Source: Pyrobaculum sp. WP30
Lineage (GTDB): Archaea; Thermoproteota; Thermoprotei; Thermoproteales; Thermoproteaceae
DNA length: 64,000 nt
Assembly (NCBI GenBank): GCA_001189275.1
Contig: CP012158.1
Coordinates: forward strand, 1,417,704-1,481,703
Reading direction: 5' to 3'
Shown here: positions 50,865 to 56,844 of the stretch, piece by piece
Layout: each line of letters opens with the position of its first letter
Position numbering within the stretch: position 1 is the stretch's first letter
The notes under the pieces: model-generated
Database searches by the model: none
The model's input: only the letters and a program-made list of their open reading frames with translations
Told to the model about the DNA's origin: nothing
Program-made: the position numbers and the translations under genes

Positions 50865-51656
50865 GTGTCAATTGTGCCGCAGGAGGTTTTGCTCGCCCTG
50901 GAGCAGATTAGGACCCACCTACGCGACTTAGGCGCCGATATAGAGCCGCAATCTCTACGTAGCGCCGTGCGCCACTACGCAGAGACGCCTGGAAAGCTCC
51001 TCAGGCCTCTGCTTCTCTTAACCTTTTCCTACAGCATAGACAGGAGGTCTTTAATCGACCCCAAGATCCTCCAGGCGGCGACCATAGTGGAGCTACTACA
51101 CATTGTGTCCCTCCTACAAGACGACGTCATGGATAAACACGACGAAAGAAGGGGCATCAAGACGCCGCGGGCGTTATACGGCGATGGGAGGTCTATACTG
51201 GCAAGCGACTGGCTCATCGCGGAGTCTATAAAACGCGCCGTACGGCTGGGGCCTGAAATCGTGGAGTATCTAGCCGACGTGGCCCAACGGCTTTCTGTGG
51301 GCCAGGCCTTGGACCTAGACGGCGAACAGGTGCGCGCCGCTGAGTTCAAAACCGCGCCTCTCATCGAGGCCTCCCTGGTGTTGCCAACTCTGTTGTTGGG
51401 GAGAAGAGACATAATAGAGGCCGCGAAGAAGCTGGGACGCTCGCTCGGCGTCTTATACCAGTATTCAGACGACTTCAGCGACGAGAAGGTAGAGAGAGGC
51501 GACGTAACCGCCGTGGTGACGGAGATAAAAAGCCTACTCGGAAGGCTGAGAAACACGCTGGGAGAAACCTTCGCGCCGTTTGAAAAACTCGTCAAGACCC
51601 TCGTCGAGAAGGCGCTGGAGGGTAGCTTAACCGTGGCGCGAAGCTTTATAACTTAA
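50865..51656 (+). CDS. Polyprenyl diphosphate synthase
   Basis: The 263-residue protein, starting at GTG 50865, belongs to the trans-prenyltransferase family. KLLRPLLLLTFSY leads to the first Asp-rich motif LLQDDVMD (86-90), and the second is YSDDFSDE. Between them, SVGQALDLDGE is conserved. It is shorter than GGPP synthases (about 300-330), lacking part of the C-terminal helices. In archaea it would supply geranylgeranyl or longer chains for ether lipids or quinones. Product length cannot be set from sequence. Confidence 0.85.
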   Translation: MSIVPQEVLLALEQIRTHLRDLGADIEPQSLRSAVRHYAETPGKLLRPLLLLTFSYSIDRRSLIDPKILQAATIVELLHIVSLLQDDVMDKHDERRGIKTPRALYGDGRSILASDWLIAESIKRAVRLGPEIVEYLADVAQRLSVGQALDLDGEQVRAAEFKTAPLIEASLVLPTLLLGRRDIIEAAKKLGRSLGVLYQYSDDFSDEKVERGDVTAVVTEIKSLLGRLRNTLGETFAPFEKLVKTLVEKALEGSLTVARSFIT

Positions 51657-51666
51657 ACGCGGACTA

Positions 51667-51775
51667 GACACGTGATGAGGCTGAAGTTTAGGGAGAGCCG
51701 TGTCTCACGGTTTGCTAGTTTATAACTACGGGAACACAGCTCGGAGACGTCAGAGGAATTTTACATATTCCCCTC
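51667..51775 (+). repeat. PaREP2-flanking direct repeat, left copy
   Basis: This ~109-bp stretch aligns without gaps to 56054-56162 at roughly 80% identity by eye, with most differences being transitions. The core includes CGTGTCTCACGGTTTGCT, identical in both. CCGTG-TCT-CACGG inside it forms a small hairpin. The right edge includes the stop codon of the PaREP2 gene. Confidence 0.85.
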
Positions 51776-54700
51776 TAGCCACTTCTCTATGGCGTCTGCA
51801 AGCTCGGCGAAGCGCCTAAAGCCTTCTAGATGCTCCCTGCCGCATACGATCTCTATGGTGCCGTCGCTCCTCTGGTACACCTTAGGCTCTCTCCCTGTAA
51901 GGGCCTTCACAAGCGCCGAGAACCTCTCGGCGTCTGCCTCCCTGCCCCCCGGCGCGTCGGCCTTGGCGTAAGCGCGTCCCACAGCCGCCTTGTCTCTGCC
52001 GAGCCTGCTGTAGGTAATTGTGTAGTCGCGCCTTACGCCGTCCACCTCCGCCGTTATCTTAATCCTCAGGAGGAGTTCGCCGCTCCTGCCCTCATCGAAC
52101 TCGGCCCCGCCGCCTACTACCTTCACCTCATGCTCCCTGCCATCTACCTCGACCTTCTTCTCAAAGCCCTCCAGCGTTAGGGAGCCCCTTGCCCTCCCCT
52201 CGTCTATGATCTCTTCGGCTTTTTCGTAAACCTCCCCGCCCTCCTCCTTTGCCCTCTGGAGTATGTACTCCACGAACTCAGCCGCAAGCCTCTGCCGCTC
52301 CCCCTCGCCGCGAACGGAGAGCCACGCGGCGTGGGCCAAGCCCTCCCTACGGATATACACATAGCCGTCGCGTCCCCCCTCCGGCATCTTCACCGTGAAA
52401 TGCTTGCCCACCTCAAGACCCATCTGCCTAAGTCTCTGCATCTCCCACTCTATGTTGCCGGAGTTGGTGGAGTTGAATCTGACCACCAGCGCGCCCTCCA
52501 CCAGCCTCACGAGATACTCAGGCCATCCCTCCTTCAACACGCGGCCTCTTTCCAGTTTCTCCAGCCAGCCCTCAGCCTTATTAGCGTCCATCCAACCCCT
52601 CGCGATGGCCTCCCTAACGACCTCGGCGAGGGTGTTTCTTAGCTCCTTGCGCCCAGCCGCAAGCTTGTCGGTGGTGGCTATGACGTACCAGACGTCTCTA
52701 CCGCCCTCCTTTTTCACCTCTGCGCTGACGCCTGCCAGTCTCAGAAGACGCGCCGCGAGCTCGGCGCGGCTCCGGTCCGATGAGACGAATTGGAGCACGA
52801 CCGCGTCATGCAGATATATGTTGTACTTGACGGCAACGCCGGCCTCCGAAATGGTTAGGTCGGCGGCGACGCGTCCGCGGTCGGTCAGCCTTATGCTACT
52901 CTTGTCAAGCTGCACCTCCACTCTGGCCTCCTTCACGAATTCGTTGAACTTGGGGCTTAAGTATTCTCCGCCCGCTGACGGCGCAGAGACGGCGAGTAGG
53001 CGCATAAGCTTTACCGTGTTCTCGCCGGTTGCGGTTATGCGGTATATACCCCTCTTCACGTATATCCGCGCGTTGAACTTCAGCTCGTCTGGCAGGAGCT
53101 GGTTGAGCATATGTAATGTGGCTAGGCGCAGTAGCGCGGCGCCTCCGCCCAGCTCCCCACCGACGACCAGCTCGACCAGCCTACGCCACACCGTGCCGTC
53201 CCCCGCTACTGCTGTTGCATACATCTTGCCGAAGTTGAGCAACGCCTCCTCTCTGTCGAACTTTTTGTTCAGCGCCTTGTCCAGCATGATTAACTCCAGA
53301 GCTGGGGCGACGAACTTCCTAACCACCGCATCCCTAGCGCAGTCCCTAGCCAGGCAGTACATATCGCTGAGGACGAAGTCGACGACGCCCCAAACCTCCT
53401 CCCTAGAGACGCCGACCTTTTCAGCTAGGCTTTCGATGAGCCCCATTGCCTTTTTCTTATACTCCTCGGCGTAGCGGATGATCACCCAGGCCAGACTATC
53501 TGCATAGTTGCCGGCTATCCTCCCGCCGCTCAACACCTCCACGGCTCTGGCCAGCCTCTTGGCCCTCTCCTCGCGCCATTTGTCGTCGTCTATACCCCTC
53601 CTCGCCTCGGCGAGGTGTGCTAGGAGCGCCAGCTCGCCCAGCGCCCTCCTCGCCAGTCCCTCCCTCTCCGCGTCGTCCCACTTCTCGGGGCCAATCCAAG
53701 GCTTCAACTCGTCGGCCAGCCTCTCAACCCTCTCTAGGACCCAGCGCCAGTCTATGGCGCCTACCAGCTCCCGCCAGCTTTCTACGCGCCGGCCCAACAA
53801 CTGCTCAAGCCATCTGCTATTCTTCAGAATCTGATCCTCCCTCTCGCGTGGCCAGTACGCGGTGACAACGGGCTTGATGCTCTCCTTAGTGACGTTAGCC
53901 CTACCGCGGAACGACTTCGGTCCGCCGAGGAGGCTGAAGTACCACCTCAACTGCCAAGGATGGGCGGTGGCGGCCTCTATCCGCCCCTCGGAGGTCGACA
54001 CGTCTGTGGCGCGCCACGCCACATACTGCGGCGCCTTGTCAAGCCCCAAGAGGTCCGGCGCCGTTCTCTTCGCCTCCTCCACGAAGCGCCTCAGCTCCTC
54101 CTCGCCAGCCTTAGAGCGGGCCACCTCTTCTATCTTCAACACATCGACGGGGGTCTCCACGCCGCCGTATGTCCTAAACACCTCGAAGCCCTCCCCAACG
54201 CGTCTAAACACGAGGTCCTCATTGACGGCTCTGCCCAGGAAGTAGCGCAGAAGCGCAGAGGCGGCCCTATCCTCCCAGCTGGGCTTACCCACAGACCTTC
54301 CGCGCCGGCCTGAGTAAGACGGATCCACAGTTTCGCCGCGTGCGTTAGCGATCCTATCGGCCTTCTCGTAGGCGCCCTTCGGCGTCAACAACACAACATC
54401 CGCCAAAGCGCCCTCCCCCACAAGCAACATGGCAACGTGGCCGTATATCCCGCCTCTCGCCACTGAGAGAAAGGCGGCGTAGGCCTTAGTCCCCATGTTG
54501 GCGTCGGAGTAGTTGCCCAACTCGTTGCGCCTCACCTCCGCCAGCTCCTCAGCCTTCTTTACGTCCACCTCCAGGTGGGGTCTGAGCCTTTCGTATAGGT
54601 CGCGGCTGTGCGACGCGTACAGCGCCAACACGCTGTTCAGCTCCCTCCTCGCCTCCTCAGCCACCTCCTCCCGCCTCCTATGCGCCCCGCGGAGCCTCTT

Positions 54701-55468
54701 CACCTCCTCGACCTTTACGGTGAATTCACGCTCCTTAACCAGACCCCTCGCCCAGTGGTACACCTCAGCCCACTCTCTATAAGCTCCGGCGTTTTTCACA
54801 AGTGTCTTATACAAAACAAGCACCGCAACCACTGCGGCGTCTTGCACCACCTCGTCCCTACTAGCAAGCGCCTTCCTCAACTCCACGAGGGGCTTGGGCA
54901 GGTTCGGCGACTTGGCCAGCTTCAGATACGGCCTCTCTCCATTCAGAGGGGCGTTGATGACCTCGTTAACGACGTTTTCGTCCACCCTCCACCTCTCATG
55001 CCTCTCAGCCAGCGTCTTAAACCTCTCAGCCGTCTTCTCGCCCACATCAGCCAGCCCAGCCACAAACGGCGCAGAAGCGGCATACGCCAGCTTCTCCAGC
55101 TCCACAAGACCCCACAGGTTCAACGCAACCGACAGCGCAACCACCCCAGCCGCCATCAAGAAGAGATATGCTTTGTGCTCATCCGCCCAAGCCAGCACCC
55201 TCGTGACGGCTTCAACAAACAGCTCAACTAGGCGCTGTGCCGTAACCTTCACCTGCTCAAATACTTCTTTAGCCGCCTCGTACAGCGCCTTCGCCGCCTT
55301 CTGCACGTACTGCACCGCCTCTCTGAACTGCCCAACCTCGGCGAGGGCGACGGCAGAGGCGATGGAGGAAACCACGGCCTCTGAATACAGCCCGTGATAC
55401 GCAGAATACAACGCCGTGGCGGAAAGCCCGGCTGAGGCGGCTTCTCTATGTCTACGCCACACCCCCAT
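51761..55468 (-). CDS. PaREP2-type repeat protein, about 1235 aa
   Basis: The long frame (open to TTG 55486; ATG 55468 preferred) matches the PaREP2 family of large repetitive-element proteins first noted in P. aerophilum. Three features stand out. There is an N-terminal Ala-rich helical region, one hydrophobic helix (YLFLMAAGVVALSVALNLWG, about residues 105-130), and a middle part with GTKAYAAFLSVARGGIYGHV and HPWQLRWYFSLLGGPKSFRG. The C-terminal third repeats a helix-strand unit (RLLRLAGVSAEVKKEGGRD, RRDYTITYSR). No transposase or nuclease triad is evident. Unlike many family members described as frameshifted, this copy is intact. Function unknown. Confidence 0.8.
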   Translation of the reverse strand: MGVWRRHREAASAGLSATALYSAYHGLYSEAVVSSIASAVALAEVGQFREAVQYVQKAAKALYEAAKEVFEQVKVTAQRLVELFVEAVTRVLAWADEHKAYLFLMAAGVVALSVALNLWGLVELEKLAYAASAPFVAGLADVGEKTAERFKTLAERHERWRVDENVVNEVINAPLNGERPYLKLAKSPNLPKPLVELRKALASRDEVVQDAAVVAVLVLYKTLVKNAGAYREWAEVYHWARGLVKEREFTVKVEEVKRLRGAHRRREEVAEEARRELNSVLALYASHSRDLYERLRPHLEVDVKKAEELAEVRRNELGNYSDANMGTKAYAAFLSVARGGIYGHVAMLLVGEGALADVVLLTPKGAYEKADRIANARGETVDPSYSGRRGRSVGKPSWEDRAASALLRYFLGRAVNEDLVFRRVGEGFEVFRTYGGVETPVDVLKIEEVARSKAGEEELRRFVEEAKRTAPDLLGLDKAPQYVAWRATDVSTSEGRIEAATAHPWQLRWYFSLLGGPKSFRGRANVTKESIKPVVTAYWPREREDQILKNSRWLEQLLGRRVESWRELVGAIDWRWVLERVERLADELKPWIGPEKWDDAEREGLARRALGELALLAHLAEARRGIDDDKWREERAKRLARAVEVLSGGRIAGNYADSLAWVIIRYAEEYKKKAMGLIESLAEKVGVSREEVWGVVDFVLSDMYCLARDCARDAVVRKFVAPALELIMLDKALNKKFDREEALLNFGKMYATAVAGDGTVWRRLVELVVGGELGGGAALLRLATLHMLNQLLPDELKFNARIYVKRGIYRITATGENTVKLMRLLAVSAPSAGGEYLSPKFNEFVKEARVEVQLDKSSIRLTDRGRVAADLTISEAGVAVKYNIYLHDAVVLQFVSSDRSRAELAARLLRLAGVSAEVKKEGGRDVWYVIATTDKLAAGRKELRNTLAEVVREAIARGWMDANKAEGWLEKLERGRVLKEGWPEYLVRLVEGALVVRFNSTNSGNIEWEMQRLRQMGLEVGKHFTVKMPEGGRDGYVYIRREGLAHAAWLSVRGEGERQRLAAEFVEYILQRAKEEGGEVYEKAEEIIDEGRARGSLTLEGFEKKVEVDGREHEVKVVGGGAEFDEGRSGELLLRIKITAEVDGVRRDYTITYSRLGRDKAAVGRAYAKADAPGGREADAERFSALVKALTGREPKVYQRSDGTIEIVCGREHLEGFRRFAELADAIEKWLEGNM

Positions 55469-55519
55469 GCGCCGGTTTAAAAACAACTATACGCAAAAGA
55501 AAACAGCTGAGGAGAGACG

Positions 55520-55951
55520 ATGGAGAGGCTTAGGGAGCCGCCTAAGCCTCCGCCTAACCCGGCGGAGGAGTTGTTGAGGGGGTGGCCGGAGCTACAAGCA
55601 TTCGGCGTTGATTGGGTGAAGAAATGGCTTGACCTTAGGGAGAGGTTAATCAAGATCGCCAAGGTGTTGAGGAGGTTTCCGTGGATGGTGGAGGTGATAA
55701 AGCAGAGGCCGATGGGCATCCTCCACCCGTATACAGTGGAGGTGTATGTGGCGAGAGACGGGTCTGAGGCGTGCCTCTCTCTAAACCCGCCTAAGGCGTA
55801 TTGTGTTCAAAACGGAGCCGTGAAGGAGGTCAAGCTGGATCTAGAGTTCAGCAGATATGAAGTGTATGAGGAGAAGATAAGAGAGGTGTACAGACCCAAG
55901 GGGCTATTGGCGTTTACCACGGCGGCCAGGGAATATGTGAGAATGCTCTAA
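55520..55951 (+). CDS. PaREP2-associated protein (PaREP2a-like), 143 aa
   Basis: This gene is divergent from the large PaREP2 gene, separated by about 50 bases. The protein starts MERLREPPKPPPNPAEELLR, has WPELQAFGVDWVKKWLDLRERL and IKIAKVLRRFPWMVEVIKQR, then a beta-rich half (YTVEVYVARDGSEACLSLNP). GAGGAG lies 8 bases before the ATG, a possible ribosome-binding site, unusual in a region of mostly leaderless genes. I assign it to the PaREP2a family from its position and composition; this is less certain than the large partner. Confidence 0.6.
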   Translation: MERLREPPKPPPNPAEELLRGWPELQAFGVDWVKKWLDLRERLIKIAKVLRRFPWMVEVIKQRPMGILHPYTVEVYVARDGSEACLSLNPPKAYCVQNGAVKEVKLDLEFSRYEVYEEKIREVYRPKGLLAFTTAAREYVRML

Positions 55952-56316
55952 CCGCTTTTTGGCGCCTTAAACTGCTTAACCATATCGAGAAGTTTTATTA
56001 TAACCTAACAAATATATTAAATATGATGAAGCTAGACTAAGCCGATTCATGACGTCGCGTGAAAGGGCTGAAGCTTGGGGAGGGTCGTGTCTCACGGTTT
56101 GCTGGTTTATAGCTACGGGGGTGCAGCTCGGAGAGGCCGGAGGGATTTTACATATTCTCCCGCCGCTGTGGCGCAAGTTTCTAGCATAGGGCCGTTACTA
56201 TATCCATACTTCTACCCCCTCCATGAATCTTTTCGAGGGGGGTGTGTACATGTTTGCGGCAGAGGTCGCCTGTTGGTGGGATGACCTTTACTGTGTAATA
56301 TTATATTGTAGATGAA
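55952..56316. other. AT-rich gap holding the right PaREP2 repeat; no gene seen
   Basis: From 55952 to 56050 the sequence is AT-rich (TTTTATTATAACC, AATATATTAAATATG). It then gives way to the right-hand direct repeat (56054-56162). Frames from 56075 to 56284 read only repeat DNA and unnatural sequence. A TAATATTATATTG tract at 56296-56308 is the likely promoter of the THEP1 gene. Confidence 0.6.
56054..56162 (+). repeat. PaREP2-flanking direct repeat, right copy
   Basis: Direct-orientation partner of 51667-51775, 4,387 bases away. It includes a sequence like the tail of the PaREP2 frame (AATATGTAAAAT on the minus strand), but the bases beyond do not resemble PaREP2 coding sequence. It therefore copies the element's 3' end only. 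Confidence 0.85.
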
Positions 56317-56844
56317 GTGGGCGTCATGGAGTTTAGGAGTGAAGTAAGGCTTGGTGTTTCCGGGATGCCGGGCGTAGGGAAGACCACACTGGCGCTTAAA
56401 GTCGTCGAGGCGGCTAAGACGCGTCTCGCAGTTTGTGGGTTTGTCACCGTGGAGGTGCGGGAGGGGGGCGCACGTATAGGCTTTGATGTCGTTGATATAA
56501 ACAGCGGCGAAAAGACGCCCCTTGCCCGCGCTGGGGTCGGAGAGCCGTCTGTGGGGAGATACGTGGTGAACCTCGGCTCCTGCGGGTTCATAGTCGGCAT
56601 CCTGCGCCGTGTGCGGTGCGACTTGTTAATCGTCGATGAAATAGGCGCCATGGAGTTCAAGTGCCCAGGCTTCGGCGAAGCTCTTGCTTCTGCCGTACAG
56701 AACTCGCCAAGAGTTCTAGCGACAGTACATAGAAACTACATAGACACGGCAAGAAGACTGGGGCTTGAAGTCATTTGGATGACTAGAGAAAACTGGGGGT
56801 CGGTCTACGCCGAGGTGTTAAGACGGCTGGGGATTTCCCAATAA
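56317..56844 (+). CDS. Nucleoside-triphosphatase THEP1
   Basis: The 175-residue P-loop enzyme has Walker [16 protein letters not shown] (about residues 16-30), [20 protein letters not shown] and Walker [13 protein letters not shown]. This is the DUF265/THEP1 family that hydrolyses ATP, GTP and other NTPs. [13 protein letters not shown] occupies the family's GxYxV segment. The ATG at 56317 could be replaced by ATG 56326 ([13 protein letters not shown]). The 3' end overlaps the convergent GTPase gene by 27 bases. Confidence 0.92.

Follow-up and report, generated by a model that had tools for sequence, protein, structure and literature searches.

A two-gene PaREP2 module of Pyrobaculum sp. WP30 is probably a mobile element that encodes a LAGLIDADG-type protein and that produced a long target duplication on insertion, leaving both neighbouring genes intact. 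The module lies in the window, by which we mean the whole 64,000-nt stretch analyzed (contig CP012158.1, positions 1,417,704 to 1,481,703). Since its first naming, the PaREP2 repeat family of Pyrobaculum has gone without an explanation. Comparison with congeners shows, at the level of sequence, empty sites, insertion, element boundaries, target duplication and survival of the neighbouring genes. A ~4.2-kb element, bounded on the left by the 3' end of PaREP2b and on the right by a short tail that follows the partner gene, would have entered the gap between a polyprenyl synthetase gene and an NTPase_1 gene.

The module and the duplicated sequence around it

The first-pass annotation had described an intact divergent gene pair between two ungapped direct repeats (~109 bp, ~80% identity, 4,387 bp apart), with mostly transition differences and with the PaREP2 stop codon inside the left copy. 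The gene pair, the stop codon (Table 1) and the spacing of 4,387 all hold, and the repeat is real, its extent having been slightly overstated: the ungapped copies (51671-51773 and 56058-56160) span 103 nt with 85/103 identical positions (83%), and 16 of the 18 mismatches are transitions. The alignment score of 116 compares to a maximum of 30 from 300 dinucleotide shuffles and a maximum of 33 from 156 mismatched left/right flank pairs of other copies. The differences are also one-sided, mostly with A in the left copy where the right copy has G, as if one strand of the left copy, just downstream of PaREP2b, had been deaminated.

Table 1 Features of the PaREP2 module and its surroundings (positions within the window)
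Feature	Position	Strand	Length	Details
Polyprenyl synthetase gene, left neighbour	50865-51656	+		Intact
Left copy of duplicated target	51625-51773		149 bp	Last 10 codons and stop of synthetase, broken sRNA remnant, segment X
Broken C/D-box-like sRNA remnant	51673-51686			In left copy
PaREP2b gene	51761-55486	-	1241 aa from TTG, or 1235 aa from ATG at 55468	Open reading frame intact
PaREP2b stop	51761-51763			TTA, within left repeat copy
Predicted two-motif LAGLIDADG endonuclease region	52925-54058	-		Protein residues ~477-854
Head-to-head intergenic region, PaREP2b/partner	55487-55519		33 bp
Partner gene	55520-55951	+	143 aa	Intact, divergent from PaREP2b
Right end of element	55952-55974			Terminates in ..CTTAAACTG
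Right copy of duplicated target	55974-56160		187 bp	C-terminal codons of synthetase, intact C/D-box-like sRNA, segment X
Intact C/D-box-sRNA-like gene	56024-56071	+		Boxes TGATGA..CCGA..ATGACG..CTGA
Segment absent from congeners	56081-56339		~260 bp	Most of segment X plus the spacer after it
NTPase_1 gene, right neighbour	56317-56844	+		N-terminus re-made

The right copy does lie beyond the partner gene, as first described, and both copies of the duplication are longer than the repeat itself (Table 1). Approximately 38 nt are missing from the left copy, inside the RNA gene, with the order otherwise as in the right copy, and because of this loss the ungapped comparison missed the rest of the duplication. 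In the right copy the synthetase end reads CLTISRSFIIT-stop, compared with ..LTVARSFIT-stop in the real gene. Because the right copy holds synthetase codons together with a conserved C/D-box-like RNA gene, it represents duplicated target DNA, and comparison shows that, to judge from the sequences, ~187 bp of target was duplicated around the module.

The left target copy runs into the final codons of PaREP2b, the 3' end of which forms the left end of the element; since target sequence abuts there, these codons depart from the family consensus (..KWLEGNM-stop versus ..WLEETRR-stop). The CTTAAACTG motif after the partner stop is common to several copies, and the right ends of elements differ between loci. 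No terminal inverted repeat of at least 25 nt was found at the module. A search of the WP30 genome (1,993,257 bp) and of 18 further genomes of the family found the window repeat at no other place, and it is therefore neither a PaREP2 3' UTR nor a terminal repeat. Both of these family-wide readings were rejected given a sequence unique to the locus, as was the earlier suggestion that the repeat marks both ends of other copies, which have duplications of their own.

The C/D-box-sRNA-like sequence (46-48 nt) is near-identical among the Pyrobaculum genomes read (loci L112-L120) and had no confident Rfam match. In most congeners its gene is located between the synthetase and NTPase_1 and overlaps the NTPase_1 start codon. 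In the window, the ~260-bp segment absent from congeners sits in the first NTPase codons between the similar short sequences TGAAGCTTGGGG and TGAAGTAAGGCTTGGTG, and it looks like an older insertion into those codons. As X, the distal half of the duplication, is missing from relatives, the window duplication can be checked on an empty site for its first part only.

Empty sites and flanking duplications at other loci

The window site is empty in ten congeners, with a gap between polyprenyl synthetase and NTPase of 55-64 bp in most of them compared to ~4.66 kb in the window. Empty sites were also found at four other loci of the WP30 genome (G000), for which the nearest relative (G008) served as the reference; all of these comparisons are between species (congeners) rather than between strains of one species. 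The genes flanking the element are adjacent in 10/10 congeners for KH/RIO1, in 9/10 for RimI/TadC, in 7/10 for regulator/citrate synthase (close together in six, with a wider gap in one) and in 9/9 congeners where found for Sir2/DUF309, the 3' ends of which overlap there. On the G008 empty site, the two WP30 flanks overlap by 52 bp, 42 bp, 62 bp and 34 bp, respectively. The sequence is thus single when the site is empty and double around the element, which is the sequence signature of insertion with target duplication. The outcomes that the first-pass annotation had named as refuting its reading, a repeat confined to PaREP2 3' UTRs or conserved synteny with no empty site in any relative, are thus not what is seen.

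At four of the five loci the duplicated piece carries a gene 3' end with its stop, and at the fifth a promoter and start, so that both neighbours stay intact. For Sir2/DUF309, both reading frames survive with the duplication, and an insertion without it must break a gene. The excess of gene 3' ends may reflect the survival of harmless insertions and not a site preference. Where the two copies could be distinguished, the one belonging to the functional gene tended to be closer to G008 and the other diverged; one copy matched G008 at 34/34 positions and the other at 31/34 for the 34-bp locus, and at 49/52 and 39/52 positions for the 52-bp locus.

The large and small genes occur together, in divergent orientation, at ~14 places in the WP30 genome. 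Same-locus flank repeats were detected in five of the 13 modules with both ends readable, scoring 116, 59, 55, 54 and 38, compared to none of 156 mismatched flank pairs between loci that reached 34 (maximum 33); the observed score sum was matched by 1 in 100,000 permutations. These repeats are locus-specific, differing in sequence from locus to locus. Flanking repeats were undetected in the remaining 8/13 modules, possibly due to age, rearrangement or another insertion route. One module (L073; 1516442 / 1520429) has on its two sides a 94-bp repeat (96%) in inverted and not direct orientation, which is a different thing.

Beyond WP30, a P. aerophilum-type genome (G001) contains PaRep2b/PaRep2a pairs arranged head to head, 29 bp apart. 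One of these elements lies between two copies of a 50-bp repeat (92%), which corresponds to the final 16 codons of a C5-methyltransferase gene (score of 80 versus a control maximum of 33), and a second case, of 26 bp, is weak. Thermoproteus sp. CP80 has two copies with possible repeats (28 bp, identical, and 36 bp), for which placement or control is poorer, and Caldivirga sp. MU80 has a PaREP2 fragment. Searches of viral contigs turned up no relative of either protein. In three closely related G001 copies (L156, L157 and L158; two of these read), the PaREP2 reading frame is divided in two, with overlapping parts of 351 and ~1030 residues, which could be a programmed frameshift.

The PaREP2b protein and its partner

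The C-terminal 559 aa of PaREP2b match PaRep2b (PF07775) at 43.6 bits (cut-off of 20.4; E = 1.9e-11), and a genome scan with PF07775 gave a match of 38.7 bits at 1470079-1470504. Searched at full length against Pfam, the protein returned nothing at E = 10; because the C-terminal part alone matches strongly, this whole-protein negative is misleading. LAGLIDADG_3 matches seven of 16 PaREP2b relatives (best E = 1.9e-6), and a profile search of solved-structure sequences found no homologue of PaREP2b or the partner. Pfam and NCBIfam scans of both proteins revealed no transposase family and no integrase.

Residues 42-1241 were modelled with AlphaFold2 (mean pLDDT of 74), and the best structural alignments of this model were to LAGLIDADG endonucleases, over model residues 436-813. 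These were led by I-WcaI (Z = 9.2, 183 aligned, 3.9 A), with further matches to I-SceI (9.0), I-Tsp061I (8.6) and PI-PfuI (8.5), Z values that are moderate (8-9) and come from a predicted ~1200-residue model. Nearly all of the best 50 structural rows were LAGLIDADG endonucleases, and two were WhiA, a regulator with the LAGLIDADG fold. Foldseek returned no match below 0.001, with I-Tsp061I ranked first (E = 0.03), and a viral fold library gave nothing below E = 0.001, with intein/endonuclease proteins among the weak matches. PaREP2b is thus predicted to contain a two-motif LAGLIDADG endonuclease fold, the halves of which are separated by a helical insertion that shorter family members do not have. 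Across 12 proteins from two genera, D495 and G762-D763-G764 do not vary, and the motif aspartates, D495 and D763, would form the active site.

The partner gene has ~20 other copies or fragments in the WP30 genome. Its product is predicted to fold into helices followed by a seven-strand sheet (pLDDT of 87), with no significant match in a structure search (best hit avidin-like, Z = 4.7). The divergent partner of the P. aerophilum-type elements is PaRep2a (PF07903; E = 8e-65). Profile comparison of the window partner with PaRep2a gave E = 0.18, below significance, while its position and orientation agree. Partner copies were also seen without an adjacent intact PaREP2b (L086, L087, L089 and L090), some with similar 3' flanks of ~300 bp.

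Insertion mechanism, alternatives and known systems

Insertion duplicated a long locus-specific stretch of the target, 34-62 bp at the four other loci and ~187 bp in the window, and in the mechanism that we propose PaREP2b would cut or nick that target. Two routes could then lead to insertion and duplication: the two strands may be nicked at positions tens of bases from each other and the gaps filled in, or copying induced by the break may rejoin the target at a point upstream of it. Known LAGLIDADG cuts leave a 4-nt stagger. The duplications are far longer than this, so that a mechanism linking the nuclease to the duplication is still missing; to our knowledge, no LAGLIDADG system makes target duplications that range from tens of bp to nearly 200 bp. 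A stronger version, in which PaREP2 is a separate archaeal class of transposable element inserted by its own LAGLIDADG protein with duplication of tens to nearly 200 bp, is one that we put forward tentatively, at somewhat under an even chance.

We considered four other explanations. The element might be moved passively by host break repair, with PaREP2b serving another role, such as regulation in the manner of WhiA. The presence of WhiA among the structural matches, a partner without assigned function and the degraded state of many copies are in keeping with this. We nonetheless regard it as unlikely, because neither motif aspartate varies among 12 copies drawn from two genera and because it is the large gene that recurs as the core of the module.

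A second explanation is that the element arrived together with a target-gene 3' end from another lineage, making one copy foreign. The LAGLIDADG-encoding WHO elements of yeast do so at FBA1, leaving 3' gene fragments, and WHO10 insertions elsewhere duplicate host-gene 3' ends (PMC7282813); at the 34-bp and 52-bp loci, moreover, one copy is clearly the nearer to the relative. However, it is the functional-gene copy that tends to be nearer G008 while the other has diverged, as expected from duplication on site followed by decay, and the target differs for each copy, with no common gene fragment travelling with the element. Homing of this kind is therefore a distinctly improbable account.

Loss of the DNA between two tandem PaREP2 copies, which would make the right repeat the tail of a vanished second copy as the first-pass annotation had suggested, accounts for the PaREP2 stop in the left repeat and for a right repeat that ends at about the matching position. 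Yet the right copy opens with codons of the polyprenyl synthetase and with the sRNA-like gene instead of PaREP2, and the arrangement repeats at unrelated loci with different repeats. Compared to PaREP2 3' ends, the 195 nt at and after the right-copy end scored 21-34, within the range of 100 shuffles for 13/14 copies and topping all 100 by a single point for one. Lacking clear similarity to PaREP2 3' ends, a second-copy remnant was rejected, and we consider tandem loss very improbable. Elements integrated by tyrosine-recombinase-type enzymes, which leave attL/attR repeats, typically have direct repeats at the 3' ends of genes, but the repeats here are locus-specific without a common core and neither protein matched an integrase, making site-specific integration the least credible reading. 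A mobile LAGLIDADG-encoding element with a long target duplication thus remains our preferred explanation.

With respect to its own family (PaRep2b, PF07775; PaRep2a, PF07903), the window protein is a PaRep2b member by profile, and the module shares with it the pairing of a large gene with a small divergent one in multiple, often degraded copies; it differs in that the protein belongs to a diverged subfamily and the partner is not provably PaRep2a. PaREP2b resembles LAGLIDADG homing endonucleases (I-SceI, I-Tsp061I, I-DmoI and PI-PfuI) in its predicted fold and two acidic motifs. Unlike in these enzymes, the region forms part of a 1241-aa protein that also has a long, helical N-terminal portion and an insertion, and the gene is found not in an intron or intein but at many unrelated insertion sites. 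An empty site and a flanking direct repeat are shared with insertion sequences that make target-site duplications, whereas in PaREP2 neither a known transposase domain, in the Pfam and NCBIfam scans of the two proteins, nor a long terminal inverted repeat was found, and its duplication is variable (34, 42, 52, 62 and ~187 bp) rather than short and fixed as in a classical DDE insertion sequence.

The closest analogue is the WHO element of yeast, a LAGLIDADG gene that leaves duplicated host-gene 3' ends (Coughlan et al. 2020, PMC7282813). Both are mobile LAGLIDADG genes with duplicated 3' ends that keep the host gene intact, and WHO10, like PaREP2, is scattered at many loci, although the integration route of these scattered members is unclear according to the authors (PMC7282813). 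In contrast to WHO, PaREP2 is archaeal, has two genes and has no common target gene such as FBA1, and its duplications were measured on empty sites with no travelling gene fragment. The first-pass claim that an intact pair would give the first clear element boundary holds for the literature searched, in which we found no description of PaREP2 boundaries, target duplications or a LAGLIDADG assignment, with the qualification that PaREP2b had already been named a putative transposon, though neither ends nor a mechanism were given (PMC3558965).

With its ends, empty sites and duplications defined, PaREP2 becomes a mobile element that can be tested and that has a probable nuclease, and its marked insertion sites are useful for studying break repair in hyperthermophiles. 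If the stronger version is true, the long target duplication would be a harm-avoiding way of entering a densely packed genome. PaREP2 would be to archaea what the WHO elements are to yeast, which suggests that endonuclease genes can become scattered, host-sparing mobile elements more than once, by way of gene-end duplication.
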